A DNA stretch of 64,000 nt from an uncultured Caproiciproducens sp. Its GTDB lineage: Bacteria; Bacillota; Clostridia; Oscillospirales; Acutalibacteraceae. Location: the NCBI RefSeq assembly GCF_963664915.1, contig NZ_OY761810.1, forward strand, positions 310,001 to 374,000. The letters run 5' to 3'. This document shows, one piece after another, positions 13,862 to 27,577 of the stretch. The notes under the pieces are model-generated. The model searched no databases, was not told where the DNA came from, and worked only from the letters and a program-made list of their open reading frames with translations. Position 1 is the stretch's first letter; every line of letters begins with the position of its first letter. Made by a program: the position numbers and the translations under genes.

Positions 13862-15585
13862 TACGCAGTCGCCCCCTTTTGCTGAAATTCATAAATATCC
13901 CGGTAAATAGGATTATGCGCCAGCAGTTCTTCATGCGTGCCGGTCTCGTTGATTTTACCGTCTTCCAGCACTACGATCAAGTCGGCGTTTTCAATAGAGC
14001 TGATGCGCTGCGTGATGATGATTTTCGTCGTATCCTTCAGATTCTCTGCCAGCCTTGTGCGGATTTTCGCCTCGGTGGCGGTGTCCACCGCGCTGGTGGA
14101 GTCATCAAAGATAAGTACCTTGGGGCGTTTCAGCAGAGCGCGGGCGATGCAGAGCCGCTGTTTTTGCCCGCCCGAAACATTCACGCCGCCCTGCCCGAGG
14201 TCTGTTTCATAGCCATCCGGCATACGGGTAAGAAATTCATCCGCACAGGCAATCCGGCAGGCCCAGCCCAGTTCCTCCTCCGTCGCGTTCTCATTGCCCC
14301 ATTTCAGGTTTTCGCGGATTGTACCGGAAAACAAGGTGTTTTTCTGCAGTACCATGCCGACAGCATCACGCAAATGGGTGAGCGGATATTCTTTTACATC
14401 ATGTCCGTCTATCTCCAGACTGCCGGAAGTTACATCGTAAAGTCTGGGAATCAGCTGCACCAGCGAAGACTTTGCGGAACCCGTCCCCCCGATGATCCCC
14501 ACCATCTGACCGGTCCCGATATGCAGGCAGATGTCGGAAAGCACATATTCCTTAGCTGCTTCCTGATATTTGAAAGATACATGCTTAAAATCGATGGTTC
14601 CCTGCTCCACCGCCCTGTCCCGCGTGCCGTCGGCAATTCCTGCCGGTTCGTCCATCACTTCAAAGATACGGCCGGCAGAGGTCATGGAACGGCTGAGCAT
14701 CAAAAAGACGTTGGAAATCATCATCAGGGAATTCAGAATCTGCAGAACATAGCTTAGAAAACCGGTCAGCTGCCCCACTCGCATGGTTCCCGTGTGGATA
14801 AAATTGCCTCCGAACCAGAGAATGCAGAGAATGGTGGCATACATGACAAACTGGAAACAGGGCATGTTCAGGGCCGCATAATGGAAGGCCATCTCCGAAG
14901 ACTCCCGGAATGTTTCATTGACTTCGCTGAACTTAAGGGATTCGCTGTCGCCCTTTACATACGATTTTACCGTGCGGATGGCCATCAGATTTTCCTGTAC
15001 AATCGAGTTCACTCTGTCCAGAGCTTTCTGCATTTTCCCGTACATCGGGCGCAGTCTTCGGAGGATCAGGAACAGGCACACGGCCAGCACAGGGATGGCC
15101 GTCAGGAAAACCAGTGCCAGCTTCGGGCTCATCACCACTGTCATTGCCAGCGCCATAACCATCATGACCGGGCCGCGCACCATGGGGCGGATGCCGTTGC
15201 AGACGGCATTCTGTAAAATCGTAATATCGCTGGTGAGCCGTGTAATCAGCGACGGAGTGCTGAAATGATCCATATTGGAAAAGGAAAAGCTCTGTATCTT
15301 TCTGTATTCGGCTTTTCTCAGCTCCGCGCCGAATCCCTGGCCTGCCCGGGCTGCCAAGCGCGCATAAATCACGCCCAAAAGCAGGGAGACCAGTGCACAG
15401 GCGACCATAGCAAGGCTTTTCTGAAGAATATAACCCCTGTCACGGTTCACGACGCCCACGTCGATGATATCGGCCATAATCAACGGTATCACCAGTTCGA
15501 ACACAGCTTCCAGCGCAACGCAGACAACGCCCCCGATCAAATGCTTCCGATATTTTTCAAAATAGACAAAAAAACGTTTAAACAC
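13861..15585 (-). CDS. ABC exporter, fused permease-ATPase subunit 1
   Basis: 574 residues. A six-helix transmembrane domain spans residues 15-300; the ATPase has Walker A GGTGSAKS, Q-loop MVLQKNTLF, signature NVSGGQKQR, Walker B VLIFDDSTSAVD and H-loop replaced by IITQRIS. The DD in place of DE after Walker B and the Q for the switch His are the usual marks of a degenerate site in heterodimeric exporters. So this subunit likely carries the non-catalytic half and its partner the active one. GTG start follows GGAGGGG. Probably drug or lipid efflux under MarR control. Confidence 0.9.
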   Translation of the reverse strand: MFKRFFVYFEKYRKHLIGGVVCVALEAVFELVIPLIMADIIDVGVVNRDRGYILQKSLAMVACALVSLLLGVIYARLAARAGQGFGAELRKAEYRKIQSFSFSNMDHFSTPSLITRLTSDITILQNAVCNGIRPMVRGPVMMVMALAMTVVMSPKLALVFLTAIPVLAVCLFLILRRLRPMYGKMQKALDRVNSIVQENLMAIRTVKSYVKGDSESLKFSEVNETFRESSEMAFHYAALNMPCFQFVMYATILCILWFGGNFIHTGTMRVGQLTGFLSYVLQILNSLMMISNVFLMLSRSMTSAGRIFEVMDEPAGIADGTRDRAVEQGTIDFKHVSFKYQEAAKEYVLSDICLHIGTGQMVGIIGGTGSAKSSLVQLIPRLYDVTSGSLEIDGHDVKEYPLTHLRDAVGMVLQKNTLFSGTIRENLKWGNENATEEELGWACRIACADEFLTRMPDGYETDLGQGGVNVSGGQKQRLCIARALLKRPKVLIFDDSTSAVDTATEAKIRTRLAENLKDTTKIIITQRISSIENADLIVVLEDGKINETGTHEELLAHNPIYRDIYEFQQKGATA

Positions 15586-15615
15586 ACATTCCCCTCCAAG
15601 TGCCCTATGCAGGCT

Positions 15616-16044
15616 TTATTCAATCTCTTTTCCCGCCAGATTTCGATACATGCGGCATAGAAAGTCAAGGAGCTGTTCCTGTTCGTTTTGGGTAAATCCC
15701 CGCATGGATATTTCCTCGATTCCTTCGCAAAGCTGCTGCCATTTTTCATAAAATTCACGGCCTTTTTCCGTAATGGAAACCGATTCGGCCCTTTTCCGCT
15801 CTGCCGGGGCCGACCGCTGGACCAGACCGGCCTGATCCATATTGTTCAAAATTTGCGAAACAGTGGCCGGTTCAATGTCCAGTGCAGCCGCAATCTCTTT
15901 TTGCATGCAGTGGTTCTGGCGTGAAAGATGGATTAAAATTTTCGGCTGTCCGGGCGAAAGGCCAATCTCCGCCATACCGGGCCGGGTCTTGTTCTTTTGC
16001 GCGTGAAATACTTTGTTTACAGCCATGTGCAGCGTAATCGGCAT
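15616..16044 (-). CDS. MarR family transcriptional regulator
   Basis: About 142 residues. The winged helix centres on IGLSPGQPKILIHLSRQNHCMQKEIAAALDIEPATVSQILNNMDQAGLVQR, with the recognition helix in ATVSQIL. The ATG at 16044 follows AGGAGGGG; the frame is open for 24 more codons with no ribosome site. It is the first gene of the leftward operon with the two exporter genes. Two palindromes lie between the -10 and the start codon, so it likely represses its own operon and is relieved by a small ligand exported by the pump. The ligand is not known. Confidence 0.88.
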   Translation of the reverse strand: MPITLHMAVNKVFHAQKNKTRPGMAEIGLSPGQPKILIHLSRQNHCMQKEIAAALDIEPATVSQILNNMDQAGLVQRSAPAERKRAESVSITEKGREFYEKWQQLCEGIEEISMRGFTQNEQEQLLDFLCRMYRNLAGKEIE

Positions 16045-16364: not shown

Positions 16365-16565
16365 ATGGCAGATAAAAATATGGATATGGACGGCCAGGGC
16401 TGCACAATGAGCCCTACTCCCCTTCCGGCAATGCCTGTTGTCGCGATGGCTTACATTCCATTTCAACAGTATAATTCTGTTTATGCGCCTGAAAAAGGGT
16501 TTGAGATGGGAACCATTTTCCCCGAGCTAGACAAACCGTTTTGGGGGGCAGGCGCAAATGAGTGA
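16365..16565 (+). CDS. cotJA: Spore coat-associated protein CotJA
   Basis: 66 residues. The block LPAMPVVAMAYIPFQQYNSVY then EKGFEMGTIFPELDKPFWG is the CotJA hallmark. CotJA is a small proline/aromatic-rich protein of the spore coat, made in the mother cell and needed with CotJC for coat assembly. GGAGAAATACA precedes the ATG. It is the first gene of cotJA-cotJB-cotJC, overlapping cotJB by 8 bp. Normal length; nothing missing. Confidence 0.93.
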   Translation: MADKNMDMDGQGCTMSPTPLPAMPVVAMAYIPFQQYNSVYAPEKGFEMGTIFPELDKPFWGAGANE

Positions 16566-16818
16566 ACAAGAAAGACTGATGCACAGAATTCATGCATATC
16601 ATTTTGCAGTCTGGGAACTTCATATTTATTTAGACACTCACCCCGGTGACTGCAAAGCAGCTAAACAACAGGAGGAATATCGCAAGATGGCAGACGATTT
16701 GATGACTCAGTATGAGACGGCCTATGGGCCGATGAATCATAGCAGTTCCGACACCAGCCGCTGGGCATGGATTAACGATCCATGGCCGTGGGATGTTAAC
16801 GAGGGGGGAAATAAATAA
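16558..16818 (+). CDS. cotJB: Spore coat protein CotJB
   Basis: 86 residues. HAYHFAVWELHIYLDTHPGDCKA and the C-terminal WAWINDPWPWDV are typical of CotJB, which is required for normal assembly of the CotJ group in the coat. It overlaps cotJA at its start and shares one base with the cotJC start (TAATG), showing tightly coupled translation of the three genes. Conserved length, so the disruption of this operon begins only in cotJC. Confidence 0.93.
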   Translation: MSEQERLMHRIHAYHFAVWELHIYLDTHPGDCKAAKQQEEYRKMADDLMTQYETAYGPMNHSSSDTSRWAWINDPWPWDVNEGGNK

Positions 16819-16931
16819 TGTGGACTTATGAGAAGCATTTGCAGTATCCAATAAATATAAAAAATACCAATCCAAAACTGGCGCAGCTTATTATTGCTCA
16901 GTATGGTGGTCCAGGTATCAATATGTTATAA
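16818..16931 (+). CDS. cotJC: cotJC 5' segment (interrupted manganese catalase of the spore coat)
   Basis: The frame opens with MWTYEKHLQYPINIKN and continues NPKLAQLIIAQYGGP, the CotJC N-terminus, but after Pro32 it runs into the element and stops five residues later (GINML). The expected next residues, DGEIGASLRYLSQ, stand 7.9 kb away at 24849-25367. Ligand Glu35 of the family falls just past the break, so this fragment has none of the manganese ligands. It is meaningful only after DNA excision, which would give 28 codons here plus 172 from the right part: 200 residues, a normal CotJC length. The ATG overlaps the cotJB stop. Confidence 0.92.
   Translation: MWTYEKHLQYPINIKNTNPKLAQLIIAQYGGPGINML
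16901..16930 (+). repeat. Left attachment site (attL) core and inner arm
   Basis: Core GTATGGTGGTCC at 16901-16912 within cotJC codons 28-32. The inner arm CAATATGTTATA (16919-16930) is the inverted complement, in 11 of 12 places, of the inner arm at the right end. On a circle the arms would flank one core as a serine-integrase attP. Confidence 0.85.
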
Positions 16932-17034
16932 ACAGAGTAGCCCGCCGAATAATCGAAGGGCTTATGATTAAGCTTGTGTTATTTTGTCCAATACGCTTAT
17001 TTCTACACGATCAATACAATATTTTCCATTCATC

Positions 17035-17063
17035 TTGACATCACGTCTTTTTACGAGTTTAAT
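17035..17063 (+). promoter_or_regulatory. Consensus promoter of the agr-like operon
   Basis: TTGACA (17035-17040), 17 bp, TTTAAT (17058-17063). Expected start near 17070, directly before GAGGTGG and the small membrane ORF. To the left, 16932-17034 holds only a weak hairpin (AGCCC/GGGCT, 16939-16962) and no gene. Confidence 0.75.
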
Positions 17064-17085
17064 AATTCTTGAGGTGGAATGAATT

Positions 17086-17232
17086 GTGAACATACTTTTT
17101 ATTATTTGCTGTGCCGTAATGTTTTCTTGCACCTTGTGTTCACTGCTTGGAATGGCGGCAGCCATGACGGTCACAAACTGTCGGCGGGCTTCCTATTATC
17201 ATCGAGTTCGCTCCAAAAAAAGATCTTATTAG
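17086..17232 (+). CDS. Possible 48-residue membrane peptide before the agr-like regulator
   Basis: Starts with GTG, 9 bases after GAGGTGG; ends 15 bp before the LytTR gene. The product begins MNILFIICCAVMFSCTLCSLL, one Cys-rich hydrophobic helix (about residues 2-26), then a basic tail (CRRASYYHRVRSKKRSY). The close promoter and ribosome site argue that it is translated in the same transcript as the regulator. I recognise no family. It could be a small membrane modulator of the kinase, or a leader peptide. The shortness and weak coding signal keep confidence low; overlapping longer frames on both strands look less likely. Confidence 0.45.
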   Translation: MNILFIICCAVMFSCTLCSLLGMAAAMTVTNCRRASYYHRVRSKKRSY

Positions 17233-17247
17233 GAAACAGGTGATTAT

Positions 17248-17976
17248 ATGTTGGAAATTGCTTTATGCGATGATGATGATGATGAACTGAACATACTCAA
17301 TTCCATGATTTTAAAATATGGCAAAGAAAAGAATATCAATGTTATTACGTTTACATACACAAATGGTGAGGATTTATTGCTGAGCACCAAAAATTTTCAT
17401 GTCATTTTTTTGGATATCAGAATGAATGGGTTAAACGGAATTGATGTAGGAAAAAAAGTCCGTGAAAATGATAAATACGTAAAAATAATATATGTAACCA
17501 ATTTTACTAACTATCAAACCGACGCCTTCACCGTAAGAGCATTTGGATATGTCACAAAGCCCTTCGCCTATGAAACAATCTGTAAACAGATGGACGATGT
17601 CATTGATTATACAGACAAGGAAAATAAAAAGATATCTTTCACCTTTCATACCGATCGGGGCATTAAAACACTAAATTTAGAAGATATTTATTATTTTGAA
17701 TCATACAACCACAGAATAAAAATTGTGTCAAAAAATGAAGTTCTAAGAATAACGGATAGTATCAATAATATTCTAAATAATTTAAAGTCTTTTGGTTTTT
17801 CAATGCCTCATAAAAGTTTTGTCATAAACTTGCTCTATGTAGCCAGCATAAAAGGATATGACATCACCTTGACAAATGGTTCTATAATCCCAATTTCACA
17901 GAAAAGATCCGTCGATTTTAAGGCTGAAGTTCATTCTTTTCTTAAAAGCAATTTTAATTTACTGATCAGGAGGTGA
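17248..17976 (+). CDS. AgrA-like LytTR response regulator
   Basis: 242 residues. Receiver domain: acidic pocket DDDDDE at 8-13, phospho-acceptor Asp56 in VIFLDIRM, Thr/Ser switch in IIYVTNF, Lys in VTKPF. LytTR DNA-binding domain from about residue 135: YFESYNHRIKIV, MPHKSFVINLLYV and ISQKRSVDFK. Such regulators bind tandem 9-bp repeats; repeat-like sequences appear before agrD. AGGTGATTAT precedes ATG. It is followed without gap by the kinase gene. By analogy with AgrA it would activate agrD-agrB after sensing pheromone through the kinase. Confidence 0.9.
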   Translation: MLEIALCDDDDDELNILNSMILKYGKEKNINVITFTYTNGEDLLLSTKNFHVIFLDIRMNGLNGIDVGKKVRENDKYVKIIYVTNFTNYQTDAFTVRAFGYVTKPFAYETICKQMDDVIDYTDKENKKISFTFHTDRGIKTLNLEDIYYFESYNHRIKIVSKNEVLRITDSINNILNNLKSFGFSMPHKSFVINLLYVASIKGYDITLTNGSIIPISQKRSVDFKAEVHSFLKSNFNLLIRR

Positions 17977-17981
17977 ATAAA

Positions 17982-19301
17982 ATGCTGGATTTTATAACGA
18001 AAATTCTTTCGTATGGTATTTCTTGTACGGCTGGGATGATCATTGTTTTTGATTTCATGAGGAAAATGTATCATCCACATTATCTAAACAAAATGGTTGA
18101 AGCGGTAACAGGCATTTTATTCTCCATTGTATGGTTCTTCATAACTATGAATAGTGTACCTATTTTAAATTTTTTATATTTACTTGTGGCTTCTTGCCTA
18201 GTGGGATTTTTTATCTATGATGCAAAGCACCTTAGCGAAGTCAACCAAATCGTAATCTTAATAGTTTCTTATGCTGGATGCGATGCAGTGACATCTTCCT
18301 TTCTTTCCATAATTACAAAAAGTGCCATCCCGTTATACAGTAATAATTCCATCCTGCTTTTGTTGAATGTTATATTACTCCAAGTCTTAATGATAGTTGT
18401 TTATAAATTGTTGATCGTTTTCTTTAAAAAGCAAAAATTGGCTTATCTATTCAAAAGACAATTTATCTTCCTGACAATTTTCCCAATTCTAAATATAGTG
18501 GTTATTTATATAATAACGATATTAGCCGCTTATAAGGTTGATCGAATTACTGCACATTTCACCATTATGGTAATGGCGATTATCTCCGCGATTTTAAACA
18601 TAACTGCTGTTTACTTTTTTGAGTACGTTTCTAAATCGGATCGGCTGGAAAATGAAATTTTATTAATCCAACAGAGAATGGACATGCAGTATAATTATTA
18701 TCAGCAGCTTGATTTGGAGTATGACAACTCCCAAAAAATCATGCATGACATAAAAAATCACATTGAGATTATCGAAAGGCTTTATAGAACAGAGCAAAAT
18801 GAGAAAGGCCTCGAATATACAAAAAAAATAACGAAAATAATTAACGAACAGGGAATGAAGTTCAAAAGTGACAACAGAATATTGAATATTATCGTGAATG
18901 AGAAAATCAAAGTATGTGAAACCCATAAAATTGTTTTTACATATTCCGTAGAGAATCTTGATCTCGATTTTCTTGATGAAATTGATGTTACTGCAATATT
19001 TGCGAATTTACTTGATAATGCAATAGAGTCCTGCGAAAAAATCACTTCCGGCAATAGGTTCATAGAACTTCGGATCTACCAATTTAATAAAATGATTATC
19101 ATTAATCTCATTAATTCAGTCGAAATAGTTCCCATAAAAAACGGCGGTGCATTCGTATCAAGCAAAAAAAACCATAAAGCCATCGGATTATCCAATGTTA
19201 AAAGGACAGTCAATAAATATAATGGGGATTTGAATATAGAAATAGAACAGAATAAATTTTCAGTGAGTATTATGTTTCCAATAGAAAATTATTATCGGTA
19301 A
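17982..19301 (+). CDS. AgrC-like GHKL sensor histidine kinase
   Basis: 439 residues with about six N-terminal hydrophobic helices (residues 5-215) forming the peptide-sensing part. A coiled stretch leads to IMHDIKNHIEIIERL with phospho-acceptor His255 (HDxxNH type), then the ATPase with N-box ANLLDNAIESC and AIGLSNVKRTV. The layout equals AgrC of the HPK10 group. ATG 17982 is preferred: GGAGG is 7 bases upstream, while the GTG 9 bases earlier overlaps it. It follows the regulator gene by 5 bp and precedes agrD. Very A/T-rich codon use compared with cotJ genes. Confidence 0.9.
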   Translation: MLDFITKILSYGISCTAGMIIVFDFMRKMYHPHYLNKMVEAVTGILFSIVWFFITMNSVPILNFLYLLVASCLVGFFIYDAKHLSEVNQIVILIVSYAGCDAVTSSFLSIITKSAIPLYSNNSILLLLNVILLQVLMIVVYKLLIVFFKKQKLAYLFKRQFIFLTIFPILNIVVIYIITILAAYKVDRITAHFTIMVMAIISAILNITAVYFFEYVSKSDRLENEILLIQQRMDMQYNYYQQLDLEYDNSQKIMHDIKNHIEIIERLYRTEQNEKGLEYTKKITKIINEQGMKFKSDNRILNIIVNEKIKVCETHKIVFTYSVENLDLDFLDEIDVTAIFANLLDNAIESCEKITSGNRFIELRIYQFNKMIIINLINSVEIVPIKNGGAFVSSKKNHKAIGLSNVKRTVNKYNGDLNIEIEQNKFSVSIMFPIENYYR

Positions 19302-19377
19302 TTGCTTTACTGTTATTACTAGAAAACATATTTATAGTTCCTAATAATTGGTTATTTCTGTATCTTAGTACAAAAAA

Positions 19378-19425
19378 CTGTAAGTTGGCGAAATCACTTG
19401 TAATTTGTAAGTTTATAATTATAAT
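19378..19425 (+). promoter_or_regulatory. LytTR-like repeats and promoter before agrD
   Basis: CTGTAAG (19378-19384), TTGTAAT (19398-19404) and TTGTAAG (19405-19411) lie ahead of two -10 candidates TATAAT (19414-19419 and 19420-19425). The first two are 20 bp apart, about two helical turns, as in AgrA sites. No good -35 exists, as expected for an activator-dependent promoter. Confidence 0.5.
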
Positions 19426-19459
19426 TGAATTAAAATAAATTATTAAGGGGTGTTCTGAA

Positions 19460-19609
19460 ATGAAAAACAACAGCATCAAAACAAAAGCATTATCAATGGC
19501 TTCCAAGGTTGCATTTCACGAGGCTCGCAAATCGGCAAATACATCCTGCCCGCTTTTTGCGTATCAGCCCCAAATCCCCGAAGCAGTTAAAAAACTCAGA
19601 AAATTCTAA
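19460..19609 (+). CDS. agrD: AgrD-like cyclic (thio)lactone autoinducer precursor
   Basis: 49 residues: an N-terminal basic amphipathic helix (MKNNSIKTKALSMASKV), a core SANTSCPLFAYQ with the ring-forming Cys30, and a C-terminal charged recognition tail PQIPEAVKKLRKF containing the AgrB-recognised PE motif. AgrB would cut after the core and close a thiolactone between Cys30 and a residue four or five places on, giving a product around TSCPLFAY; the exact ends are not predictable here. AAGGGGTG precedes the ATG, and the stop overlaps the agrB start (TAATG). Too short for automated gene callers, but its place and shape are characteristic. Confidence 0.9.
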   Translation: MKNNSIKTKALSMASKVAFHEARKSANTSCPLFAYQPQIPEAVKKLRKF

Positions 19610-20205
19610 TGTTCCAGAAAATTATTGACAGGATTGCCAATGCATTGTGTGAGAGTAGTCTTATTAACAATGAGGATAAAGCGATTTACCGATTTGGAAT
19701 TGAGGCCACTCTCCTCAAATGTATTCACATTATCACGATGTTGATAATGGGCGTTGCTTTTGGGTTGATATTAGAAACTTTTGTATTTATCATTACTTAT
19801 TCAATTCTTAGAATCTATGCAGGTGGGTTCCATTCAAAAACAAGGATCGGTTGTTATATTATATCATGGATAATGATACTATCTGTTTTACTTCTCATTA
19901 AATTCTGCTCAAACCAATTGATATTTGTTGTATTGATTGTCGTCTCGATTTTATCTTGTTTTATAATACTCATTTTGTCCCCTGTAGGGAACGTCAATAA
20001 ACAGCTTGATGATATTGAAATACAACATTATAAAGCAAAAACCAGAATAATTTTATCTATAGAAATAATCATATCAATGATATTTTTACTTGTAAATATC
20101 AGTCAAATTTCCATTAGTATAAGTTTTAGCATACTCTCAGTAGCAATAATGCTTATATTAGGAAAAGTCCAACTAAAGCACATAGCAAACGATTTCTCAG
20201 TGTGA
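19609..20205 (+). CDS. agrB: AgrB-like peptide-processing protease
   Basis: 198 residues, mostly membrane (about six helices). The catalytic pair stands at His75 (RIYAGGFHSKT) and Cys82 (RIGCYI), seven residues apart as in S. aureus AgrB (His77/Cys84). AgrB is a membrane endopeptidase that cleaves and cyclises AgrD. The start shares a base with the agrD stop. The order here, regulator-kinase-agrD-agrB, differs from the B-D-C-A order of staphylococci. The substrate peptide is next door, so the module is self-contained. Confidence 0.92.
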   Translation: MFQKIIDRIANALCESSLINNEDKAIYRFGIEATLLKCIHIITMLIMGVAFGLILETFVFIITYSILRIYAGGFHSKTRIGCYIISWIMILSVLLLIKFCSNQLIFVVLIVVSILSCFIILILSPVGNVNKQLDDIEIQHYKAKTRIILSIEIIISMIFLLVNISQISISISFSILSVAIMLILGKVQLKHIANDFSV

Positions 20206-20214
20206 GGTGTTCCT

Positions 20215-20409
20215 ATGTATTACAGTGAAATAACATGTGACAGAATCACGGAAATTGAAGCTCATATGCAGATACTCGCACTATGTGAAAGATGGCATAA
20301 TTTAGCTTATCCGAATGGAGATTTTATCAAATATTTAAAAAAACACACTAATTTACTTAACATTGAGCAGTGGCCATGTTTTATAAAAATAAAAGAGTAC
20401 AATTTATAA
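20215..20409 (+). CDS. Unknown 64-residue protein after agrB
   Basis: MYYSEITCDRITEIEAHMQILALCERWHNLAYPNGDFIKYLKKH then a short tail. Soluble, mildly acidic, no signal peptide or metal site. GAGGTG sits 5 bases before the ATG, 9 bp after the agrB stop, so it belongs to the agr-like transcript. I recognise no family. Being the last gene before a strong terminator, it could be an output gene or a modulator of the circuit. Confidence 0.65.
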   Translation: MYYSEITCDRITEIEAHMQILALCERWHNLAYPNGDFIKYLKKHTNLLNIEQWPCFIKIKEYNL

Positions 20410-20466
20410 TCTGAGTATGATCAAACCACATAAATACAAACATTTAGATATGCTTTGCATTTTAAA

Positions 20467-20501
20467 ATAGCCCTCCCAGCCGCAATGGATGGGAGGGCTA
20501 T
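20467..20501 (+). terminator. Intrinsic terminator of the agr-like operon
   Basis: 12-bp perfect stem ATAGCCCTCCCA/TGGGAGGGCTAT with an 11-nt loop, T-rich on the right. A related hairpin recurs at 22095-22125. The remaining sequence up to 20639 holds no gene. Confidence 0.85.
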
Positions 20502-20639
20502 CATCCTATCTATAGATAATTATTCCTCTACGGTGCTTACGCCTAACTCATTTATCATTTTTTTAATTTCGCAATTTTGGAACAGCATCTTTCTCACACT
20601 GTGCTATACTGGTTTTACCGTACGGTTGGAGGGAAGCTG

Positions 20640-21527
20640 ATGAATACCACAGAAATGCTGCAGGACATTCTGGAATATGTTGACGAACATATCACAGACA
20701 ATCTCAGTGCCGATCTTTTGGCGGCGCGCGCCGGTTTTTCCACATGGCATTTCTGCCGGATATTTCAGTGGGGAATCGGATACTCGGTAATGGGCTACGT
20801 GAGGAACCGCCGCCTTGCTTTTGCTGCCCACGAACTCAATTCCGGCCAGAGAATCCTCGATATTGCTCTGGAATACGGCTTTGAAACGCATTCGGGTTTC
20901 AGTAAGGCTTTCCGCCGCTATTTCAGAGCTTCTCCGGAAACCTATCGCCTACACGCACATTGCAGCCAGCCAACGCCGCCCAGTCTGCCCGGCATGAACA
21001 AATATCGAATTGGAGGAATTATTTTGGAACCTAAATTTGTTACCCTGCCTGCCGTAAAGCTTGCAGGTTTTGTCCTGAAAACCACCTCGTCCGAAGGCAA
21101 GAACAGCAAAGCCATCCCTGCCTTTTGGGGCGACTATATGAGTGATGGAAGGATGGAAAAGCTTCACGGCGAAAGTTTCGTCAAAAAGCACGACGAGTAC
21201 GGTGCATGCTTTTCAGAAGACACGGAAACCGGAGAATTTGAGTATGTCATCGGCATCGAGCCGAAGAATGGCGCGGCAATTCCGGACCAATACCATGTCT
21301 GCGAACTGCCACCTGCGACCTATGCTGTATTTTCGACGCCTCCCTGCACCGCTTCAACTTTTATATCCGCCATTCAAGGGGTATGGCAGTATATTTTCAA
21401 TGAATGGTTTCCAAAAGCCGGATACGAGTATGCACCGAATTGTGCGGACTTTGAGCTGTATAATGACCGCTGCATGTCGGAATCAGGAAAAATTTGCGAC
21501 ATTTATATCCCGGTTATAAAGAAATAA
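20640..21527 (+). CDS. AraC family regulator with GyrI-like effector domain
   Basis: 295 residues. N-terminal double HTH (about residues 8-105): LSADLLAARAGFSTWHFCRIFQWGIGYSVMGYVRNRRLAFAAHEL, then ILDIALEYGFETHSGFSKAFRRYFRASPETYR. The C-terminal half (about 125-295) matches the GyrI-like small-molecule-binding domain (YVIGIEPKNG, YAVFSTPPCT, CDIYIPVI), the same arrangement as Rob and similar drug-sensing activators. ATG 20640 follows GGAGGGAAGC. G/C content is nearer to the chromosome than the agr genes, so it may have been added separately. Its target genes are not evident; it may control element or host genes. Confidence 0.88.
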   Translation: MNTTEMLQDILEYVDEHITDNLSADLLAARAGFSTWHFCRIFQWGIGYSVMGYVRNRRLAFAAHELNSGQRILDIALEYGFETHSGFSKAFRRYFRASPETYRLHAHCSQPTPPSLPGMNKYRIGGIILEPKFVTLPAVKLAGFVLKTTSSEGKNSKAIPAFWGDYMSDGRMEKLHGESFVKKHDEYGACFSEDTETGEFEYVIGIEPKNGAAIPDQYHVCELPPATYAVFSTPPCTASTFISAIQGVWQYIFNEWFPKAGYEYAPNCADFELYNDRCMSESGKICDIYIPVIKK

Positions 21528-21536
21528 AAACAGCAG

Positions 21537-21566
21537 TCCCCCGTCAGCCAATCCGCCGGCGGGGGA
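21537..21566 (+). terminator. Hairpin after the AraC-type gene
   Basis: CCCCCG/CGGGGG stem (21538-21543 and 21560-21565) 10 bp past the stop, followed by mixed A/T sequence. Probable terminator. The interval to 21741 shows no gene. Confidence 0.55.
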
Positions 21567-21741
21567 TGAATTATATCTATTCCCTTTTTCGCTCTGGCCT
21601 TGATTGCGGTAAAGGTATTTTGACTTCTCCCTGATAGAAACATAAAAAAACTTAAATTTTCTTATTAATGTTAATTTTTATGTGAAGATACCGATATTAT
21701 TCATAGAAGGAATTTATAAATACAAAGGATAGTGATCAATT

Positions 21742-22083
21742 ATGAGCATTTCAGCGGTTTCAGGTGTCAGCACTTACACTGCGGCATCGAGCACCAGCAG
21801 CCAAAGTGAAATAAGTAAATTACGGGCACAGGAAAAACAATTGCAGCAGCAACTCACCGAATTGCAGACTGATTCCTCTGACAAAGATTCCGACCAAATT
21901 CAAGAGCAGGAAACTTTGATTCAACAGCAAATCTCACAGATTCAACAGCAAATTCAGCAGCTGCAGGACGAAGCAAATAAAAAGGCGCAAGAAACCCAAA
22001 TGACTCAGGCAGCACAGGCAAGTAATAGGATCGGTGATTCATTAAGTTCTTTAAACGATCATCTTCTTGACATCACTGTATAA
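21742..22083 (+). CDS. FlxA-like coiled-coil protein
   Basis: 113 residues. After a Ser/Thr-rich start (SGVSTYTAASSTSSQ), a Gln-rich coiled coil runs from about residue 25 to 85 (LRAQEKQLQQQLTELQ, IQQQISQIQQQIQQLQ). This matches the FlxA-like family, found in spore-forming and flagellated Bacillota with no known activity. The start lies behind GGATAGTGATC, a weak site. It is an isolated gene on the element, bounded by hairpins. No membrane or signal part is present. Confidence 0.7.
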   Translation: MSISAVSGVSTYTAASSTSSQSEISKLRAQEKQLQQQLTELQTDSSDKDSDQIQEQETLIQQQISQIQQQIQQLQDEANKKAQETQMTQAAQASNRIGDSLSSLNDHLLDITV

Positions 22084-22094
22084 GATTACGGAAA

Positions 22095-22125
22095 AGCCCT
22101 CCCAACCGTCACGGCTGAGAGGGCC
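22095..22125 (+). terminator. Hairpin after the FlxA-like gene, related to the agr terminator
   Basis: GCCCTC/GAGGGC stem with inner CCGT/ACGG, 12 bp past the stop. The 29 bases from GCCCTCCCA onward match those at 20469 apart from about seven changes, so both may derive from one sequence. Confidence 0.65.
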
Positions 22126-22187
22126 GAATTGTATCTATATGTTATTTTGCGGTTTCTTTCCGACAGCGTCAACGGTCTGCAGGATGC

Positions 22188-22436
22188 TTAATCCAGATGG
22201 CATGCAAGATATTCGGACATAACCTCGCCGGCATGTTTCATCATTCTTTTGTCATACTCAATTTGCTCTTCTTCCGGCATAAATATTGTTCTTTTTATTG
22301 ATTTAAACTGATATGTACCTTTCGGTGATGGAATCTGTTCAAACACAATTTCCTCCCGGCAGCGCACGGAGCCGTCGCCGGTTTTATCCACTATGTAACT
22401 GACGGAGGTAAAGGTAAACGGTTTTTTGGCTGCCAA
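22188..22436 (-). CDS. Unknown 82-residue protein
   Basis: MAAKKPFTFTSVSYIVDKTGDGS then charged segments ending MMKHAGEVMSEYLACHLD. It has no membrane helix. TTG 22436 is preferred because GAGGTGA is 5 bases upstream; GTG 22445 is an alternative that overlaps this site. It is the only leftward gene I accept on the element. I recognise no family; it looks like a small soluble alpha/beta protein. A possible promoter for it lies in the repressor operator region to the right. Confidence 0.55.
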   Translation of the reverse strand: MAAKKPFTFTSVSYIVDKTGDGSVRCREEIVFEQIPSPKGTYQFKSIKRTIFMPEEEQIEYDKRMMKHAGEVMSEYLACHLD

Positions 22437-22593
22437 GATAATCACCTCACTTCATGTGTATTGTGAAAGCGGATTGTCCTATGCATCTTCGTTATAAAGA
22501 TCATCTATATGGCAATGATTAAACCCCGCTTTTTCGCGGCAATGTCTGATCTCTCTTCTAATTATCACCTACAATGATACATTATCGTCAAAA

Positions 22594-22665
22594 TTGATAA
22601 AATAGGCATTTATCAATGATTTATCAAAAACAAATCGCTGCTATTGCTAAATCAATCAAATTGAT
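22594..22665. promoter_or_regulatory. Operator cluster of the XRE repressor
   Basis: TTGATAAA (22594-22601) faces TTTATCAA (22609-22616), and TTTATCAA recurs at 22620-22627, 11 bp (one helical turn) on. A related palindrome ATCAA-A-TTGAT is at 22655-22665, just before the repressor gene. This is the expected layout of a phage-like repressor controlling itself and a divergent promoter. The wider gap 22437-22688 holds no gene. Confidence 0.65.
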
Positions 22666-22688
22666 ATATTGTTTTTATAGGTGATTTA

Positions 22689-23024
22689 ATGAATAATTTA
22701 AAAGAATTAAGAATCTCTAAAAGGCTTACACAAGCTGAATTGGCACAGATGATAGGCATTGGTCAAAATACTTATTCTTACTGGGAAAACGATAAAGTAA
22801 AAATTGATAATCTGTCCCTTTCAAAATTATCAAAGCTTTTTGGTGTTTCAATAGATTACATTTTAGGAAATGAGCAAAAAAATAAACCCTTTGTCGAAGC
22901 AAAGAGTTATTCAAAAGAGGCTACTGACCTACTTGACCGAATTGATCGGCTTTCTCCCGCCAATCGTGACAAATTGTCTGAACTAATTGATCTTTATCTA
23001 TCCTCTCAAGGTAAAAAACAATGA
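22689..23024 (+). CDS. XRE family repressor (SknR-like role)
   Basis: 111 residues. The HTH (residues 5-60) reads LRISKRLTQAELAQMIGIGQNTYSYWENDK, followed by LFGVSIDYILGN. The C-terminal 40 residues (LDRIDRLSPANRDKLSELIDLYLSSQ) form a helical dimerising tail. TAGGTGATTTA precedes ATG. Repressors of this kind keep prophage-like elements silent; in B. subtilis skin the SknR protein does so. Operator-like repeats lie upstream, so this is probably the element's maintenance repressor. Confidence 0.85.
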   Translation: MNNLKELRISKRLTQAELAQMIGIGQNTYSYWENDKVKIDNLSLSKLSKLFGVSIDYILGNEQKNKPFVEAKSYSKEATDLLDRIDRLSPANRDKLSELIDLYLSSQGKKQ

Positions 23025-23075
23025 ATTTCTAGCCCTACAATTAGAGATCCGCAATACCAATTAAGGAGATTGGTT

Positions 23076-23258
23076 ATGAAACATTTTAAATTTCAGAGAG
23101 CGATTTGGACATTTTCAGGTATCTGCTTTTTGTCCGCGTTTCTGCTGAATCTGATAGAAGGAAAAAACCACTCATTGATTTATGTCTGTCAAGCCATTGC
23201 GGCAATTGCTTCATTCCTGAATGCTTACCAGGCGCATAAAAAAATCGTAAAAGAATAG
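23076..23258 (+). CDS. Small two-helix membrane protein
   Basis: 60 residues: WTFSGICFLSAFLLNLI and SLIYVCQAIAAIASFLNAY are two membrane helices with a short linker; basic ends (MKHFKFQR, HKKIVKE). AAGGAG lies 7 bases before ATG 23076. Similar tiny proteins occur next to XRE repressors on mobile elements of Bacillota, usually of unknown role; a holin-like, toxin or anchoring function is conceivable. No partner antitoxin RNA was identified. Confidence 0.65.
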   Translation: MKHFKFQRAIWTFSGICFLSAFLLNLIEGKNHSLIYVCQAIAAIASFLNAYQAHKKIVKE

Positions 23259-23396
23259 CACTACCCCACGTCCTAACCGATGTGGAGATAATTCGAAAAA
23301 TAAGCGTATGCTGATTTTACATTTGAAGACGGTAAACTTGATATGAAGATACAATTTGGCTTAAAATAAATTCTCTTATTCTTTGGAGGTGAGTGC

Positions 23397-24830
23397 GTGA
23401 AAATTGCCGCTGCTTATATTCGCGTATCAACCGACGACCAGATGGAATACAGCCCGGACAGCCAGCTCGAAAAGATCCGTGAATATGCAAAGAATAATGA
23501 TATGATCCTTCCGGAAGAATTTGTATTCCGCGAGGATGAGGGCATCAGCGGAAAAAAGGCTGAAAAACGGCCGGAATTTATGCATATGATTGGTACCGCC
23601 AAAAAGAAGCCAAAACCTTTTGATGTGATCATTGTCTGGAAATTCAGCCGCTTTGCCCGTAACCGGCAGGACAGCATCGTGTATAAGTCCATGCTCCGGA
23701 AGCAGTGCGACATTGATATCATATCCGTTACGGAGCAGCTGGGCGACGATAAGATGTCCATCATCGTCGAGGCCATGATCGAGGCCATGGACGAATACTA
23801 CAGCATCAACCTTGCTGAAGAAGTGCGGCGCGGCATGAATGAAAAGGTATCCCGCGGGGAACCGGTAACGGCCCCGGCTTTCGGATACCTCATCAAAGAT
23901 AAAAAGTATTATATTGACCAGGACACCGCTCCGCTAGTGCGTATGATCTACACCGATTATATTGCCGGCATGGGATACCGGGCCATCGCTACGAAACTAA
24001 ACACGATGGGGATCCGAACCAAGCGCGGCGGCCTATGGGAAAACCGCACCGTGGAATATATCCTGCGCAATCCGGTCTACATAGGAAAAATCCGATGGAA
24101 CGCCAAAGGAAAAACACGCCGCAATTTTGATGACCCCAATATCATTTTAATTGATGGTGATCATGAACAACTGATTGATAATTATACATGGCAACTGGCA
24201 CAGGCCCGCCTGCTCGAAAACAAAATGATGTACGGTAAATATGCCGGCCAGAAAAATCCAGCCGCATTCTTGCTGCAAGGGCTGGTGAAATGCAGCAACT
24301 GCGGGAGTACCCTTACCAGAACCGTTGGAACTTCCATGCAATGTCAGGCATACGCGCACGGTAAATGCAATGTATCGCACGGAGTGTCAATCAGCAAACT
24401 GGAAGAAATGGTTTTAACCACTCTCGACATGAACATCAGATATGGTAATATTCCCCTGGTTCAAAAAGCTGTGCCGAAAGTCGAATATGAAGCCGAGGCC
24501 ATCGAAAAGCAGATCCTCCGTGAGAAGCAGAAGCTAATCCGGGTGAAGGAAGCATATGAGAACGGCATCGATTCTCTGGAAGAATATCGAGTAAACAAGC
24601 AGAAGATCACAGAGAGGATTGAGCAGCTGCAGACCGAGAAACCGGTCAGGAAAGTCCCGCCGCAAGATGAGCTGATAAAAAAATTTCGCTCAGCTCACAA
24701 GAATACAGTTAAGCGGCTGCGGGATCCTAAAATCAGTGTGGAAGAAAAGAACGCCCTTCTGAGAACCTTTATCGATAAAGTTGTATTTGACAGAATAAAG
24801 TGTCAGATACAAATTTTTTATTACATCTAA
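23397..24830 (+). CDS. Large serine recombinase (SpoIVCA-like)
   Basis: 477 residues. Resolvase domain: AAYIRVSTDDQ with catalytic Ser11, then EDEGISGKKAEKRP and WKFSRFARN. A recombinase domain (residues 165-265, YRAIATKLNTMGIRTKRGG), a zinc ribbon (CSNCGSTLTRT, then CQAYAHGKCN), and a coiled coil (residues 345-420) follow. These are the parts of large serine integrases. GTG start behind GGAGGTGA. The stop is 17 bp from the right repeat, as usual for an integrase next to its site. By analogy with SpoIVCA it would excise the element in the mother cell. In 23259-23396 GATACAAT resembles a SigE -10 but lacks a good -35. Confidence 0.92.
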   Translation: MKIAAAYIRVSTDDQMEYSPDSQLEKIREYAKNNDMILPEEFVFREDEGISGKKAEKRPEFMHMIGTAKKKPKPFDVIIVWKFSRFARNRQDSIVYKSMLRKQCDIDIISVTEQLGDDKMSIIVEAMIEAMDEYYSINLAEEVRRGMNEKVSRGEPVTAPAFGYLIKDKKYYIDQDTAPLVRMIYTDYIAGMGYRAIATKLNTMGIRTKRGGLWENRTVEYILRNPVYIGKIRWNAKGKTRRNFDDPNIILIDGDHEQLIDNYTWQLAQARLLENKMMYGKYAGQKNPAAFLLQGLVKCSNCGSTLTRTVGTSMQCQAYAHGKCNVSHGVSISKLEEMVLTTLDMNIRYGNIPLVQKAVPKVEYEAEAIEKQILREKQKLIRVKEAYENGIDSLEEYRVNKQKITERIEQLQTEKPVRKVPPQDELIKKFRSAHKNTVKRLRDPKISVEEKNALLRTFIDKVVFDRIKCQIQIFYYI

Positions 24831-24833
24831 TAC

Positions 24834-24859
24834 TATAACAAATTGGTGTATGGTGGTCC
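24834..24859 (+). repeat. Right attachment site (attR): inner arm and core
   Basis: TATAACAAATTG (24834-24845) is the inner arm; the core GTATGGTGGTCC (24848-24859) joins cotJC at its Tyr codon (TAT, 24849). The sequence just right of the core belongs to cotJC. Confidence 0.85.
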
Positions 24860-25367
24860 GGACGGGGAAATAGGAGCTTCCCTGCGCTATTTAAGTCAGC
24901 GCTACAGCATGCCCTATCCGGAGTTGAAGGCTATTCTTACTGATATTGGAACAGAAGAACTCGCCCATTTGGAGATGGTCGGGACAATTGTCCACCAGCT
25001 TACCAGGAATTTAACCGAAGAGCAGATCAGGGAAGGCGGGTTTGCCGCTTACTTTGTAAACCATACCAACGGAGTTTACCCTGCCGATGCAGGAGGAGCC
25101 GCATTCACCGCAGCTTATTTACAAGTTAAGGGCGACCCGATCACTGACATTCATGAGGATTTAGCCGCGGAACAAAAAGCACGAAGCACCTATGATAATA
25201 TCCTGCGCTTTGCAGATGATCCGGATGTCCGTGACCCGATCAAGTTCCTTCGTGAACGTGAAGTCGTGCATTATCAGCGCTTTGGTGAAGGTCTTCGTAT
25301 CATTACCGATCAACTGGATTCAAAAAATTTCTATGCCTTTAATCCGGCATTCGATATAAAAAAATAA
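24849..25367 (+). CDS. cotJC: cotJC 3' segment (manganese catalase core of the spore coat)
   Basis: 172 residues from YGGPDGEIGASLRYLSQRY to the stop. Ligand candidates of the Mn-catalase family are in place when numbered on the joined protein: Glu35 (DGEIGA), Glu65 and His68 (EELAHLEM), and Glu and His in REREVVHYQRF. No start or ribosome site stands in front, so without excision it is silent. After excision it fuses in frame with 16818-16900. CotJC is a catalase-like enzyme protecting the spore or aiding coat formation. A terminator follows 19 bp downstream. Confidence 0.93.
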   Translation, partial: YGGPDGEIGASLRYLSQRYSMPYPELKAILTDIGTEELAHLEMVGTIVHQLTRNLTEEQIREGGFAAYFVNHTNGVYPADAGGAAFTAAYLQVKGDPITDIHEDLAAEQKARSTYDNILRFADDPDVRDPIKFLREREVVHYQRFGEGLRIITDQLDSKNFYAFNPAFDIKK

Positions 25368-25386
25368 AAATTTTCTACAAAATAAG

Positions 25387-25420
25387 GCCTTCTTAACACC
25401 TGTTTGTTAAGAAGGCTTTT
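25387..25420 (+). terminator. Intrinsic terminator of the cotJ operon
   Basis: 12-bp perfect stem GCCTTCTTAACA with a 6-nt loop and TTTT at the 3' side. It lies right after cotJC. Confidence 0.9.
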
Positions 25421-25433
25421 AATAGTATAAAAT

Positions 25434-25452
25434 CCACCAGCTCTGCTGGTGG
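25434..25452. repeat. Short strong hairpin of unknown meaning
   Basis: CCACCAGC-TCT-GCTGGTGG, 8 bp with 3-nt loop, flanked by A-runs. It might end the leftward PTS operon, or be an old IS200/IS605-type end; no transposase is visible. The 25453-25605 stretch holds only short frames without support. Confidence 0.35.
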
Positions 25453-25605
25453 GAAAAAACTTAAGCTATGGACAAAAGTAAATTCCCCGATATATTAAAA
25501 TTACGGTTTGCCAATCGAACGTAAATATCAAGGAGGCCTTTACAATCAAAGATGTACCTTTTTCATCAGAATGCCGTTCACATTCATAATAATGTTTTGA
25601 AATTA

Positions 25606-26298
25606 TCATTTCACCTCTAAAATACGCTTGTCATTTATTGCCTGTTCGACAATATTTTGCCATGACGTGCCCTGTAAATTTTGTTTGGCCAAAGCAAGAA
25701 ATCGATTCATTAATTTATCGTTTTTTTTGTAATAAGCAAGTTTTGCCACCCGATACTGTGTGATTCCTTTCATACAGTTGTCTGTTTGTTGTTCTGAATC
25801 TGCAATCAGCCTGCCGATTAGTTCTGTGTTTCTGTTAATGTAAATTTCAATCAGCAGAGTTGCGTCGTCCATTATCTTCTGATATTTTACTATTTCGGTT
25901 TTTCCGATAAAACGATCTAAGCTTTGATATGAAGCAATCGACTGTTCTTTGTTTTGTGTATCTATATAATAGGATAGTTTTTTCTGAAGATAATCAAGTC
26001 TTTCGGCGGGCTTTAACTTGGCAGAATCAAGACGCCGGATCAAACCGTCGATTTCAACTTCGCTGCCTTTGTACAGCAGTCCTTCCAACTCCAAAAGTAG
26101 GATACTGTTTTTACGAAGGAGAAGAGCAAGATGACTGCTTTGCAGCGCCTCAAAATAAAGTGCGGAGTTATTTTGAATATATAAAATATTTTTTAGTTTT
26201 GCCAATACCCTTTGCCGTAAAACATTGAGTGACAGCAGGATTATAAGAATCAATGTAAAAAGAATGATACCGTATATAGTTTGATTCAAAGCGATCAC
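25606..26298 (-). CDS. Membrane-anchored helical-repeat protein of unknown function
   Basis: 230 residues. One N-terminal membrane helix (IYGIILFTLILIILLSLNVL), then a cytoplasmic all-helical part rich in Leu/Tyr/Lys, with short helices resembling tetratricopeptide repeats (LDYLQKKLSYYIDT, IVKYQKIMDDATLLIEIYI). I recognise no family. It is the last gene of the leftward mannose-type PTS operon, 18 bp after the EIIA gene, so it may help organise the transporter. No signal for export. The start is supported by position only. Confidence 0.65.
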   Translation of the reverse strand: MIALNQTIYGIILFTLILIILLSLNVLRQRVLAKLKNILYIQNNSALYFEALQSSHLALLLRKNSILLLELEGLLYKGSEVEIDGLIRRLDSAKLKPAERLDYLQKKLSYYIDTQNKEQSIASYQSLDRFIGKTEIVKYQKIMDDATLLIEIYINRNTELIGRLIADSEQQTDNCMKGITQYRVAKLAYYKKNDKLMNRFLALAKQNLQGTSWQNIVEQAINDKRILEVK

Positions 26299-26316
26299 CC
26301 CAGATCTATCAATAAT

Positions 26317-26706
26317 TTATTCGTTTTCAGGGAATATCTTTATGGTATCTTTTGCCACGTCTACGGCCATCTTAGCCAGTTTGTTTGCCGACAATTCTAA
26401 ATTATAAACCATTTCTGTATAAGCTGCCGCATTTAATCCGGCTACCGTGCAATAGTCGGAACTTTCCGCGCTTTTTACTGCAGCTAGTCGGAATGGGGAG
26501 CCTCCGGCAAGGTCACAGGCGAACAGAACCTGATTTCCCTCAATTTCTTTTAATACTTCATCAATTTTTTTTTCAAAATCATCCAGATTATCATTTTGAA
26601 AAAAATCGAGATAGTAAAAGCCTTCGGTATCACCGAGAAGCATAGCTAGGTTGTTCTTAACCCCTTGGGCATAACCCCCGTGTCCGAGTACAATTACATT
26701 CGTCAT
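26317..26706 (-). CDS. PTS system mannose-family EIIA component
   Basis: 129 residues. MTNVIVLGHGGYAQG has the phosphorylated His9 of EIIA-Man; FACDLAGGSPFRLAA is the second signature. It accepts phosphate from HPr and passes it to EIIB. In this operon EIIA is a separate short protein, split from EIIB, as in agaF-type systems. It lies after the SIS-domain gene, separated by a hairpin at 26728-26757. AAGGAGAAAT is the ribosome site. Confidence 0.88.
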   Translation of the reverse strand: MTNVIVLGHGGYAQGVKNNLAMLLGDTEGFYYLDFFQNDNLDDFEKKIDEVLKEIEGNQVLFACDLAGGSPFRLAAVKSAESSDYCTVAGLNAAAYTEMVYNLELSANKLAKMAVDVAKDTIKIFPENE

Positions 26707-26727
26707 TTCATTTCTCCTTATTTCATG

Positions 26728-26757
26728 TAAGCCCCTGTCGTAACAGACAGGGGCTTA
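26728..26757 (-). terminator. Intra-operon hairpin between the SIS and EIIA genes
   Basis: TAAGCCCCTGTC/GACAGGGGCTTA, 12 bp, 6-nt loop. The U-run exists only on the plus strand, so on the operon strand it more likely stabilises or partly attenuates the transcript. Confidence 0.5.
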
Positions 26758-26788
26758 TTTTTATACAGTTTAGAAAATCGGATCAAAA

Positions 26789-27547
26789 TCAGTTTCGATT
26801 GTCTCTCACTAATTTGGTGTAATTCGTATACACATCATCGTTGTTTGACTGCGGACACTCAACTACGTTGGGAGACACGAAAATGGACATATTATACCCC
26901 GATTTTTCCAGTAGCAGTGCAGTTTCACTAGCAATGGACTGGGTTACTGTAATCGCAGCGATGGTTGAGCTCGCCCCCACCTTTTGAGCATAACCCGGAA
27001 TTGGAACAAGAGAATCTTCGAGTGGACAGCAGTTGTCAATCAACACATCAGCCAAATCACCCAGTTTTTTGCCCGAAGAATGAGTTGCTTTCGCTTTTTT
27101 GAAGTTTTCGCCGGAAGTTACGACAATCACTTTCATTCCATGATCTTTCGCATACATAGCACACTCAATCGGAGCGGCGTTGAGGCCACCGTGAGAGTAA
27201 ACAATCATGACTTCGCCTTCTTGAAAATTGTAGCTTTGGAGGAAATTTTTAATATAGCCTTCTTGTCTTTCAATCCAAAGAAGTTCGCGAGCACCGCCCG
27301 CTCCGATGACATTATTCCACATCAGGCGAGGATCCATACACGGATGGAATCCGACAACTCCGCCGTATCTCGGGAACATATCTTGTGTTGGAAGTACGGA
27401 ATGGCCACTTCCAAAAAGATGGACTAGCTTACCGGTATGAATTGTATCAGCGCAAAGCTTTGCGGCTGCGCGAATGTTCTCCGTTTGTGTGGCATCAATC
27501 TTTTCGATTACTTTTGTTACTTCTTCTACATACTTTAAATTGTTCAT
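26789..27547 (-). CDS. SIS-domain phosphosugar-binding protein (UPF0309-like)
   Basis: 252 residues. One SIS fold: GKLVHLFGSGHSVLPTQ (sugar-phosphate loop), VMIVYSHGGLNAAPIE and VIVVTSGEN, ending NNDDVYTNYTKL. It matches the UPF0309 type of isomerase-like proteins beside amino-sugar genes. It probably isomerises or deaminates the phosphosugar delivered by this PTS, but the catalytic base cannot be named. ATG 27547 is selected since AAAGGT is 9 bases upstream; the ATG at 27556 abuts that site. It sits between EIID and EIIA. Confidence 0.75.
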   Translation of the reverse strand: MNNLKYVEEVTKVIEKIDATQTENIRAAAKLCADTIHTGKLVHLFGSGHSVLPTQDMFPRYGGVVGFHPCMDPRLMWNNVIGAGGARELLWIERQEGYIKNFLQSYNFQEGEVMIVYSHGGLNAAPIECAMYAKDHGMKVIVVTSGENFKKAKATHSSGKKLGDLADVLIDNCCPLEDSLVPIPGYAQKVGASSTIAAITVTQSIASETALLLEKSGYNMSIFVSPNVVECPQSNNDDVYTNYTKLVRDNRN

Positions 27548-27577
27548 TTTTAACATACCTTTCTAAATAATAAATAT

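Follow-up and report, generated by a model that had tools for sequence, protein, structure and literature searches.

Can a spore-coat gene that lies in two distant parts on the chromosome be put together again in the cell that builds the coat? The question is raised by the manganese (Mn) catalase gene cotJC in a 64,000-nucleotide stretch of DNA (hereafter the window) from an uncultured Caproiciproducens sp. (NCBI RefSeq assembly GCF_963664915.1, contig NZ_OY761810.1, positions 310,001 to 374,000), where 7,947 bp separate the two parts of the gene. Our analysis leads us to put the probability at roughly 85% that the insert is a skin-like element which is excised in the mother cell by a recombinase and a directionality factor, restoring cotJC. 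This reading draws direct support from the split itself, the repeated cores, the preserved frame, an unsplit copy in the same genus, a recombinase family tied to the site, a pattern of four break sites and selection on both halves of the gene in one lineage.

The divided gene and its joints

The gene, its joints and the two cotJ genes before it are arranged as follows.

16365..16565, plus strand: cotJA (Pfam CotJA, 2e-17), with cotJB directly 5' of cotJC
16558..16818, plus strand: cotJB (Pfam CotJB, 3e-26), directly 5' of cotJC
16818..16912, plus strand: 5' part of cotJC, codons 1-31 and part of 32; unjoined, it runs into a stop after 37 codons
16901..16912, plus strand: left core of the attachment site (attL), GTATGGTGGTCC
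16901..24847, no strand assigned: the cotJC-intervening element, 7,947 bp
24848..24859, plus strand: right core of the attachment site (attR), GTATGGTGGTCC
24849..25367, plus strand: 3' part of cotJC, from codon 29 as counted through the core (Pfam Mn_catalase, PF05067, 7.4e-43)

Even with one mismatch allowed, the window contains the 12-bp core GTATGGTGGTCC at the two joints only; 0.13 matches would be expected there by chance, and two were reached by one of 100 shuffles. Joined at the core, the parts yield an Mn-catalase gene of 603 nt, 200 codons in frame and free of internal stops. The original prediction had described the 7,947-bp split, the 12-bp repeat at both joints and a frame of 200 codons kept on joining, and it is borne out by the coordinates, the Mn_catalase match of the 3' part, the absence of any other copy of the repeat in the window and the stop-free joined frame. 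For the deduced attB and attP sites the best dyad centre is in both cases the GG at 16908-16909, inside the core, as expected for a serine recombinase, since these enzymes cross over at a central dinucleotide. The attP dyad comprises 15 of 26 pairs, a value as high in 17 of 500 shuffles, and that of attB stands without a shuffle comparison; together they are weak evidence that this GG may be the cross-over point.

The comparison with relatives proposed along with the original prediction turned up an uninterrupted gene in the same genus: genome G213 carries cotJC unsplit, 86% identical and with the site intact. A search of the whole genome to which the window belongs gave no second Mn-catalase match, and a backup Mn catalase was rejected as an alternative on that ground. 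The same genome has a second cotJA-cotJB pair (L002, G000:C1:523309), in which the CotJB frame is followed by tandem repeats; no cotJC was found in the following 1.5 kb. The interrupted gene is cotJC and not sigK, the host of the skin element proper. The best match of the sigK model in this genome spans positions 1-213 of 227 in one open frame (279.6 bits, below the cut-off of 298.65), and this search revealed no split sigK in the genome.

Recombinase lineages at four sites of cotJC

The last gene of the element ends 17 bp before the right core.

23397..24830, plus strand: large serine recombinase of 477 amino acids, of the family of site A (Pfam Resolvase, Recombinase and Zn_ribbon_recom; phrog_95 integrase, 2.3e-111)

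Its Resolvase, Recombinase and zinc ribbon domains make it a large serine recombinase, as had been predicted; its NCBIfam match to XisF is weak (96 bits against a cut-off of 375). A scan with one genome per species gave 73 recombinase loci, from which L075, a distant match of 26% identity, was set aside. Since the search patterns were derived from the recombinase alone, adjacency to cotJC was not built in. Nevertheless, a part of cotJC lies at most 1.2 kb from the recombinase 3' end in 68 of the 72 remaining loci (at most 250 bp in 67, 903 bp in L013). The 3' end faces the cotJC 3' part in 38 of the 72 and, in the opposite orientation, the 5' part in 30; at L004 and L068 the stretch stops at a contig end. 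Hosts named in the records are Oscillospiraceae, Butyricicoccaceae, Caproicibacter and single genomes of Lachnospiraceae and Peptococcaceae. With 68 of 72 loci beside cotJC and the site-A recombinases in one clade, this is a site-specific recombinase dedicated to the cotJC site.

Two loci bear on the polarity of these elements. The recombinases of L039 and L060 are near-identical, and their elements lie oppositely oriented at the same site, facing opposite parts of cotJC; on visual inspection, one and the same end of the element abuts opposite halves of the site in the two. We read this as polarity being set only by the central dinucleotide. Orientation was also considered as a marker of clades and was rejected on account of this pair.

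The break at the window's joint is one of several. In a survey of 397 same-family genomes, each at least 80% complete and searched with the joined protein, 312 have a cotJC match and 85 have none. By a hand tally the 312 comprise 144 genomes with a whole gene, 139 with the gene in pieces, 3 in which it is cut by a contig end and 26 unclassified ones, which hold a paralogue only or were not re-examined. The group of whole genes takes in G272 (slightly cut by a contig end), G094 and G302 (genes of 52-53% identity), some stop-flagged genes and G088, which has an additional piece. Assigned with generous site windows, the breaks fall at about codon 30 (site A, 60 genomes), 62 (site B, 62), 136 (site C, 24) and 173 (site D, 31), with another end in 5. 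Of the 139 fragmented genomes, 103 have one site occupied, 28 two, 6 three and 2 none of the four, so that 34 carry more than one break in a single gene copy. In G096 four pieces lie in order on one contig within 48 kb, and in G225, also one contig, three pieces extend over 47 kb. All four sites adjoin residues, E35, E65/H68, E136 and H169, that align with positions conserved among Mn catalases of known structure; we take these residues to be metal ligands.

Contig ends could mimic single breaks in draft genomes. An assembly artefact can be rejected, however: the window sits in a 3.13-Mb genome of one contig, of the 20 matching genomes in no more than about 10 contigs 17 have the gene split, and the break points cluster. 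In a class-wide sample 195 of 293 genomes match, and among the matches listed, some from other families start and stop at similar positions.

Joint pairs were examined in 23 cases. The frame is open across the joint in 15 of them, of which 11 belong to site A, 3 to B and 1 to C; two of the 15, L048 and L161, are the same sequence. Two pairs at D are open to the gene's own stop, and L148/L149 (C) is open in the printed stretch, though stop-flagged. The register slipped in five pairs; L147/L148 and L164/L165 are in frame by eye, and L005, L051 and L166 were left uncounted. Where the register held, the longest exact runs at the joints measure 4-19 bp. At L160, L162 and L163 the final ~28 codons of cotJC are present in additional copies, which in G107 lie tens of kb off on the same contig; in G312 three lie on one contig. 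No recombinase was found beside the extra copies in G107 and G312, and it looks as if site-D elements stack or carry a 3' end of their own.

A tree of 101 recombinases groups them by site: A forms one clade of 69 rows (Shimodaira-Hasegawa-like approximate likelihood ratio, SH-aLRT, 99), B two clades, C one clade of 5 (SH-aLRT 100) and D one clade of 4 (100); the tree comes from a quick search, has long branches and places one unrelated long-branch recombinase inside B. In the stretches fetched around breaks, most elements inspected have a large serine recombinase at one joint, in both orientations at A, B and D and so far in one at C. Several B cases have the recombinase at the left joint and none at the right; some B cases stop at contig ends. 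At L152:6074-8125 a site-B recombinase ORF (open reading frame) and the cotJC 3' part are fused in frame into an ORF of 683 amino acids. One chromosome record (L229:1-1326) begins inside another large serine recombinase, near a gene that we take from its sequence to be smpB-like.

Because several recombinase lineages occupy four ligand-motif sites in it, cotJC is best explained as a recurrent docking gene. We further consider it likely that this holds class-wide, with separate serine-recombinase lineages that have each become specialists for a single one of the four metal-ligand motifs; many Clostridia would then have the gene only as 2-4 pieces, requiring 1-3 DNA deletions per sporulating mother cell, and selected elements down to 2.3 kb would act like introns at the DNA level.

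Selection on the divided halves

If split copies are rejoined, both halves should be constrained. The clearest evidence on selection comes from genomes other than that of the window, namely four with an orthologous 2.3-kb element, in which the 5' part is followed by an Amidase_6 gene, a small ORF, the recombinase and the 3' part. These are the smallest elements, holding a recombinase, a small factor and one cargo gene. A 2.3-kb element is carried by a cultured relative, Caproicibacter fermentans EA1 (L074). The Amidase_6 gene (L048:9196-9681) comes directly after the cotJC 5' part and may be read with the cotJ operon. Six pairs in this lineage give an omega, the ratio of non-synonymous to synonymous rates, of 0.013-0.066 over codons 2-28, and the three pairs with a synonymous divergence, dS, under 2 give 0.031-0.035 over codons 35-197; for the recombinases it is 0.16-0.22. 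Site-A 3' parts in general have a median omega of 0.035 over 15 pairs, and unsplit cotJC a median of 0.13 over 8 pairs; some of the pairs are the same sequence under two locus identifiers. Pooled ratios of non-synonymous to synonymous differences (pN/pS) are 0.14-0.26 for the remaining split sets, against 0.18-0.22 for unsplit genes.

The five ligand positions are each kept in 34 of 34 whole genes. In the pieces they are kept in 92 of 105, 102 of 104, 93 of 95, 87 of 96 and 88 of 91 cases, and nearly all misses lie at piece ends that face a break. A permanently cut gene would not show such conservation of ligands together with such selection. The host gene thus appears to stay under selection while split, strongly in the 2.3-kb lineage and elsewhere to a degree comparable with unsplit genes. 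Because both halves are under strong purifying selection there, split copies of the 2.3-kb lineage are probably rejoined.

The same data bear on whether the elements are plain parasites in a dispensable gene, with split cotJC dead and excision serving transfer only. Such parasites would fit the gaps between pieces, which range from 2.3 to 164 kb, the 85 of 397 family genomes without a cotJC match, and the viral records: predicted viral contigs contain 13 recombinase relatives (cotJC is beside 4, and the others are without host flank or show no cotJC), one of 52% identity lies in a phage record, and of the 12 phage records that match cotJC, six faecal 'Bacteriophage sp.' hold a piece whose start or end is close to site B or C. 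Split halves, in contrast, are still in frame with hardly any ligand lost, and purifying selection has acted through dS of about 1 on both of them, and on the recombinase, in the 2.3-kb lineage. We regard plain parasitism as quite improbable.

Alternatively, the 3' part alone could be used as a shortened catalase, from a possible start TTG at 24843 and with no developmental excision. The site-A 3' part does retain all five ligand positions and has this possible start codon. Codons 2-28, however, are constrained like the rest of the gene in the 2.3-kb lineage, and at B, C and D the ligands are divided between the parts, yet pooled pN/pS resembles that of unsplit genes. This scenario is very hard to credit.

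Proposed excision, its control and known elements

From these observations we infer that the element is excised, that this happens in the mother cell only, and what part the small ORF plays. As its attB home the element would use the conserved cotJC codons for Tyr-Gly-Gly-Pro, which immediately precede ligand Glu35. It would stay in place, with cotJC off, during growth and in the genome of the spore. During sporulation the mother cell would make the element's directionality factor, most likely the product of 22188-22445 on the minus strand, which would turn the serine recombinase to recombination of attL with attR; the element would leave as a circle, and an unbroken cotJC would be produced for the coat. 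Since the mother cell dies, the germ line would lose nothing. Relatives of the window's recombinase and other lineages would occupy this site and three more ligand-motif sites in many Clostridia.

Besides the recombinase, the element carries the following.

17248..17976, plus strand: LytTR-type response regulator, cargo (Pfam LytTR 3.9e-16, Response_reg 5.9e-15)
17973..19301, plus strand: GHKL histidine kinase, cargo (Pfam HATPase_c_5 3.1e-21)
19609..20205, plus strand: AgrB-like protein, cargo (Pfam AgrB 1.5e-37)
20577..21527, plus strand: AraC-type regulator with GyrI-like/Cass2 domain, cargo (Pfam Cass2 2.9e-25, HTH_18 2e-20)
21742..22083, plus strand: FlxA-like small protein, cargo (Pfam FlxA 9.9e-11)
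22188..22445, minus strand: candidate recombination directionality factor, 85 amino acids, without PHROG or Pfam match
22473..22482, minus strand: ATAGGACAAT, upstream of the candidate factor
22689..23024, plus strand: XRE-type regulator (Pfam HTH_3 5.3e-16)
23070..23258, plus strand: ORF of 62 amino acids, without family match

The agr-like genes (regulator, kinase and AgrB, 17248-20205) are cargo within a sporulation-gene element. Ten element ORFs were scanned and none gave a convincing match to phage structural or packaging genes, and we do not class the insert as a prophage; the FlxA-like ORF has a weak scaffold match (0.0014), and the XRE regulator one to a terminase small subunit (0.001). 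The G+C content of the element is 31-43% per 1-kb bin (17001-23000), lower than in the left flank (48-53%, 13001-16000); the contrast with the right flank (38-45%, 25001-29000) is less clear.

Homologues of the candidate factor were found in 13 of the 94 loci searched (the window included; two pairs are identical proteins), near the recombinase and on the other strand. The accompanying recombinases belong to the branches of the window and of the 2.3-kb elements, with identity down to about 45%. One universal directionality factor was rejected, as other recombinase branches adjoin different small ORFs. The motif ATAGGAC occurs upstream of the homologues in 12 of 13 regions (0.1 expected). The stretch ATAGGACAATC resembles what we take to be the SpoIIID consensus, WWRRACARNY; the literature searched does not give that string together with SpoIIID, the genome-wide count is unsupportive, and we do not rely on the resemblance. 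Upstream of the recombinases, sigma-E/K -10 motifs are suggestive only: CATA.A[AT]T occurs in 10 of 66 (2.4 expected) and CATA..[AT]T in 15 of 66 (6.7 expected). In C. difficile, according to the available part of PMC5025042, the skin directionality factor has 72 amino acids and is under sigma-E and SpoIIID; the 85-residue candidate is like it in position and size.

Excision could instead be random, or stress-induced in few cells, without sporulation control. In the passages available, the yabG element of C. botulinum shows both forms at all time points (PMC10747680), and the skin recombinase of C. difficile is made constitutively (PMC5025042). On the other side, cotJC is a gene of a coat operon, and 12 of 13 loci have a conserved promoter-like stretch ahead of the candidate factor, neither of which settles the timing. 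We consider uncontrolled excision unlikely.

Several observations weigh against developmental excision of a functional cotJC. The selection test has less force for copies other than those of the 2.3-kb lineage, with omega up to 0.29 in site-A 3' parts, and in distant genomes codons 2-28 often have omega 0.2-0.6, split and unsplit alike. The candidate factor is of low occurrence, and its upstream motif is not enriched genome-wide (3 sites against 11 for the reversed-pattern control). For two of the 72 recombinase loci, L024 and L026, the available 660-750 bases contain no cotJC. A recombinase was not found at a joint at B of G096 and G309, where recombinases are 1.8 and 2.6 kb off, nor at C of G270 and D of G163. 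In G361, a genome of one contig, the site-B parts (L158, L159) lie at C1:446947 on the plus and 2556906 on the minus strand, 2.1 Mb apart; here recombination would invert the intervening DNA, and deletion cannot mend the gene; an old inversion or the assembly may account for this. Finally, the available parts of PMC11222575 and PMC12122855 cite C. difficile and B. subtilis mutants of the cotJC type without a marked coat defect, and the gain from rejoining the gene may therefore be small.

With these points counted, a skin-like element able to restore cotJC exactly, as originally predicted, has gained support: from the unsplit copy in the same genus and the 68 of 72 recombinase loci beside cotJC, and further from in-frame joints at more sites and purifying selection on both halves in the best-testable lineage. 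The likeness to skin in sigK of B. subtilis and C. difficile is close: there, too, a mother-cell sporulation gene is split by an element with a large serine recombinase and a short repeated core, and the small directionality factor of skin has a candidate counterpart here. The heterocyst elements of cyanobacteria also cut developmental genes; they excise in a terminal cell, in another lineage and another development, and the weak XisF match given above is a further likeness. Skin hits sigK at different sites in B. subtilis and C. difficile, according to the passages available of PMC6957869; here the host is cotJC, with four recurrent sites, and 34 of the 139 fragmented genomes have more than one of them occupied in a single copy of the gene.

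The interrupted sporulation genes named in the available passages of PMC4191935, PMC5595907, PMC6957869 and PMC10747680 are sigK, spsM, spoVFB, spoVR, gerE, kamA and yabG. The elements SP-beta (spsM), vfbin (spoVFB), vrin (spoVR), gin (gerE), yin (yabG) and the phi3T-type element in kamA share with ours an interrupted sporulation gene, which in those cases is restored by a recombinase and a directionality factor and here would be; several elements in one gene copy are not told of in those passages. As far as described there, gin of B. cereus is, like the window's element, without phage structural genes, and differs in having 28.6 kb and three recombinases against 7.9 kb and one. There is no mention of cotJC in the main texts of PMC5595907 and PMC4191935, it is not among the host genes in the passages available of PMC6957869 and PMC10747680, and the available text of a large recombinase survey (PMC10083194) mentions neither catalase nor cotJ. 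No report of a split cotJC was found in the literature searched, supplements and subscription papers lying outside the search. The nearest case in the accessible text is the phi027 prophage of C. difficile, which is integrated, and excises, at a CotJC-like gene (cotG, CDR20291_1465); that gene is described as 678 bp downstream of attR and not as split (PMC11222575, PMC12122855). New relative to known skin-type elements are the host gene, the four sites, several elements per gene, the class-wide spread and the very small members.

Among family genomes with cotJC, about as many have the gene in pieces (139) as whole (144), at four fixed sites and sometimes three at once. In consequence, cotJC may often be annotated as missing or fragmentary. 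The elements supply many recombinases with a readable target site. They also provide many natural replicates for an old question, whether such elements belong to the developmental programme or are parasites that are tolerated given the death of the mother cell, and for this question the 2.3-kb elements are unusually simple systems.

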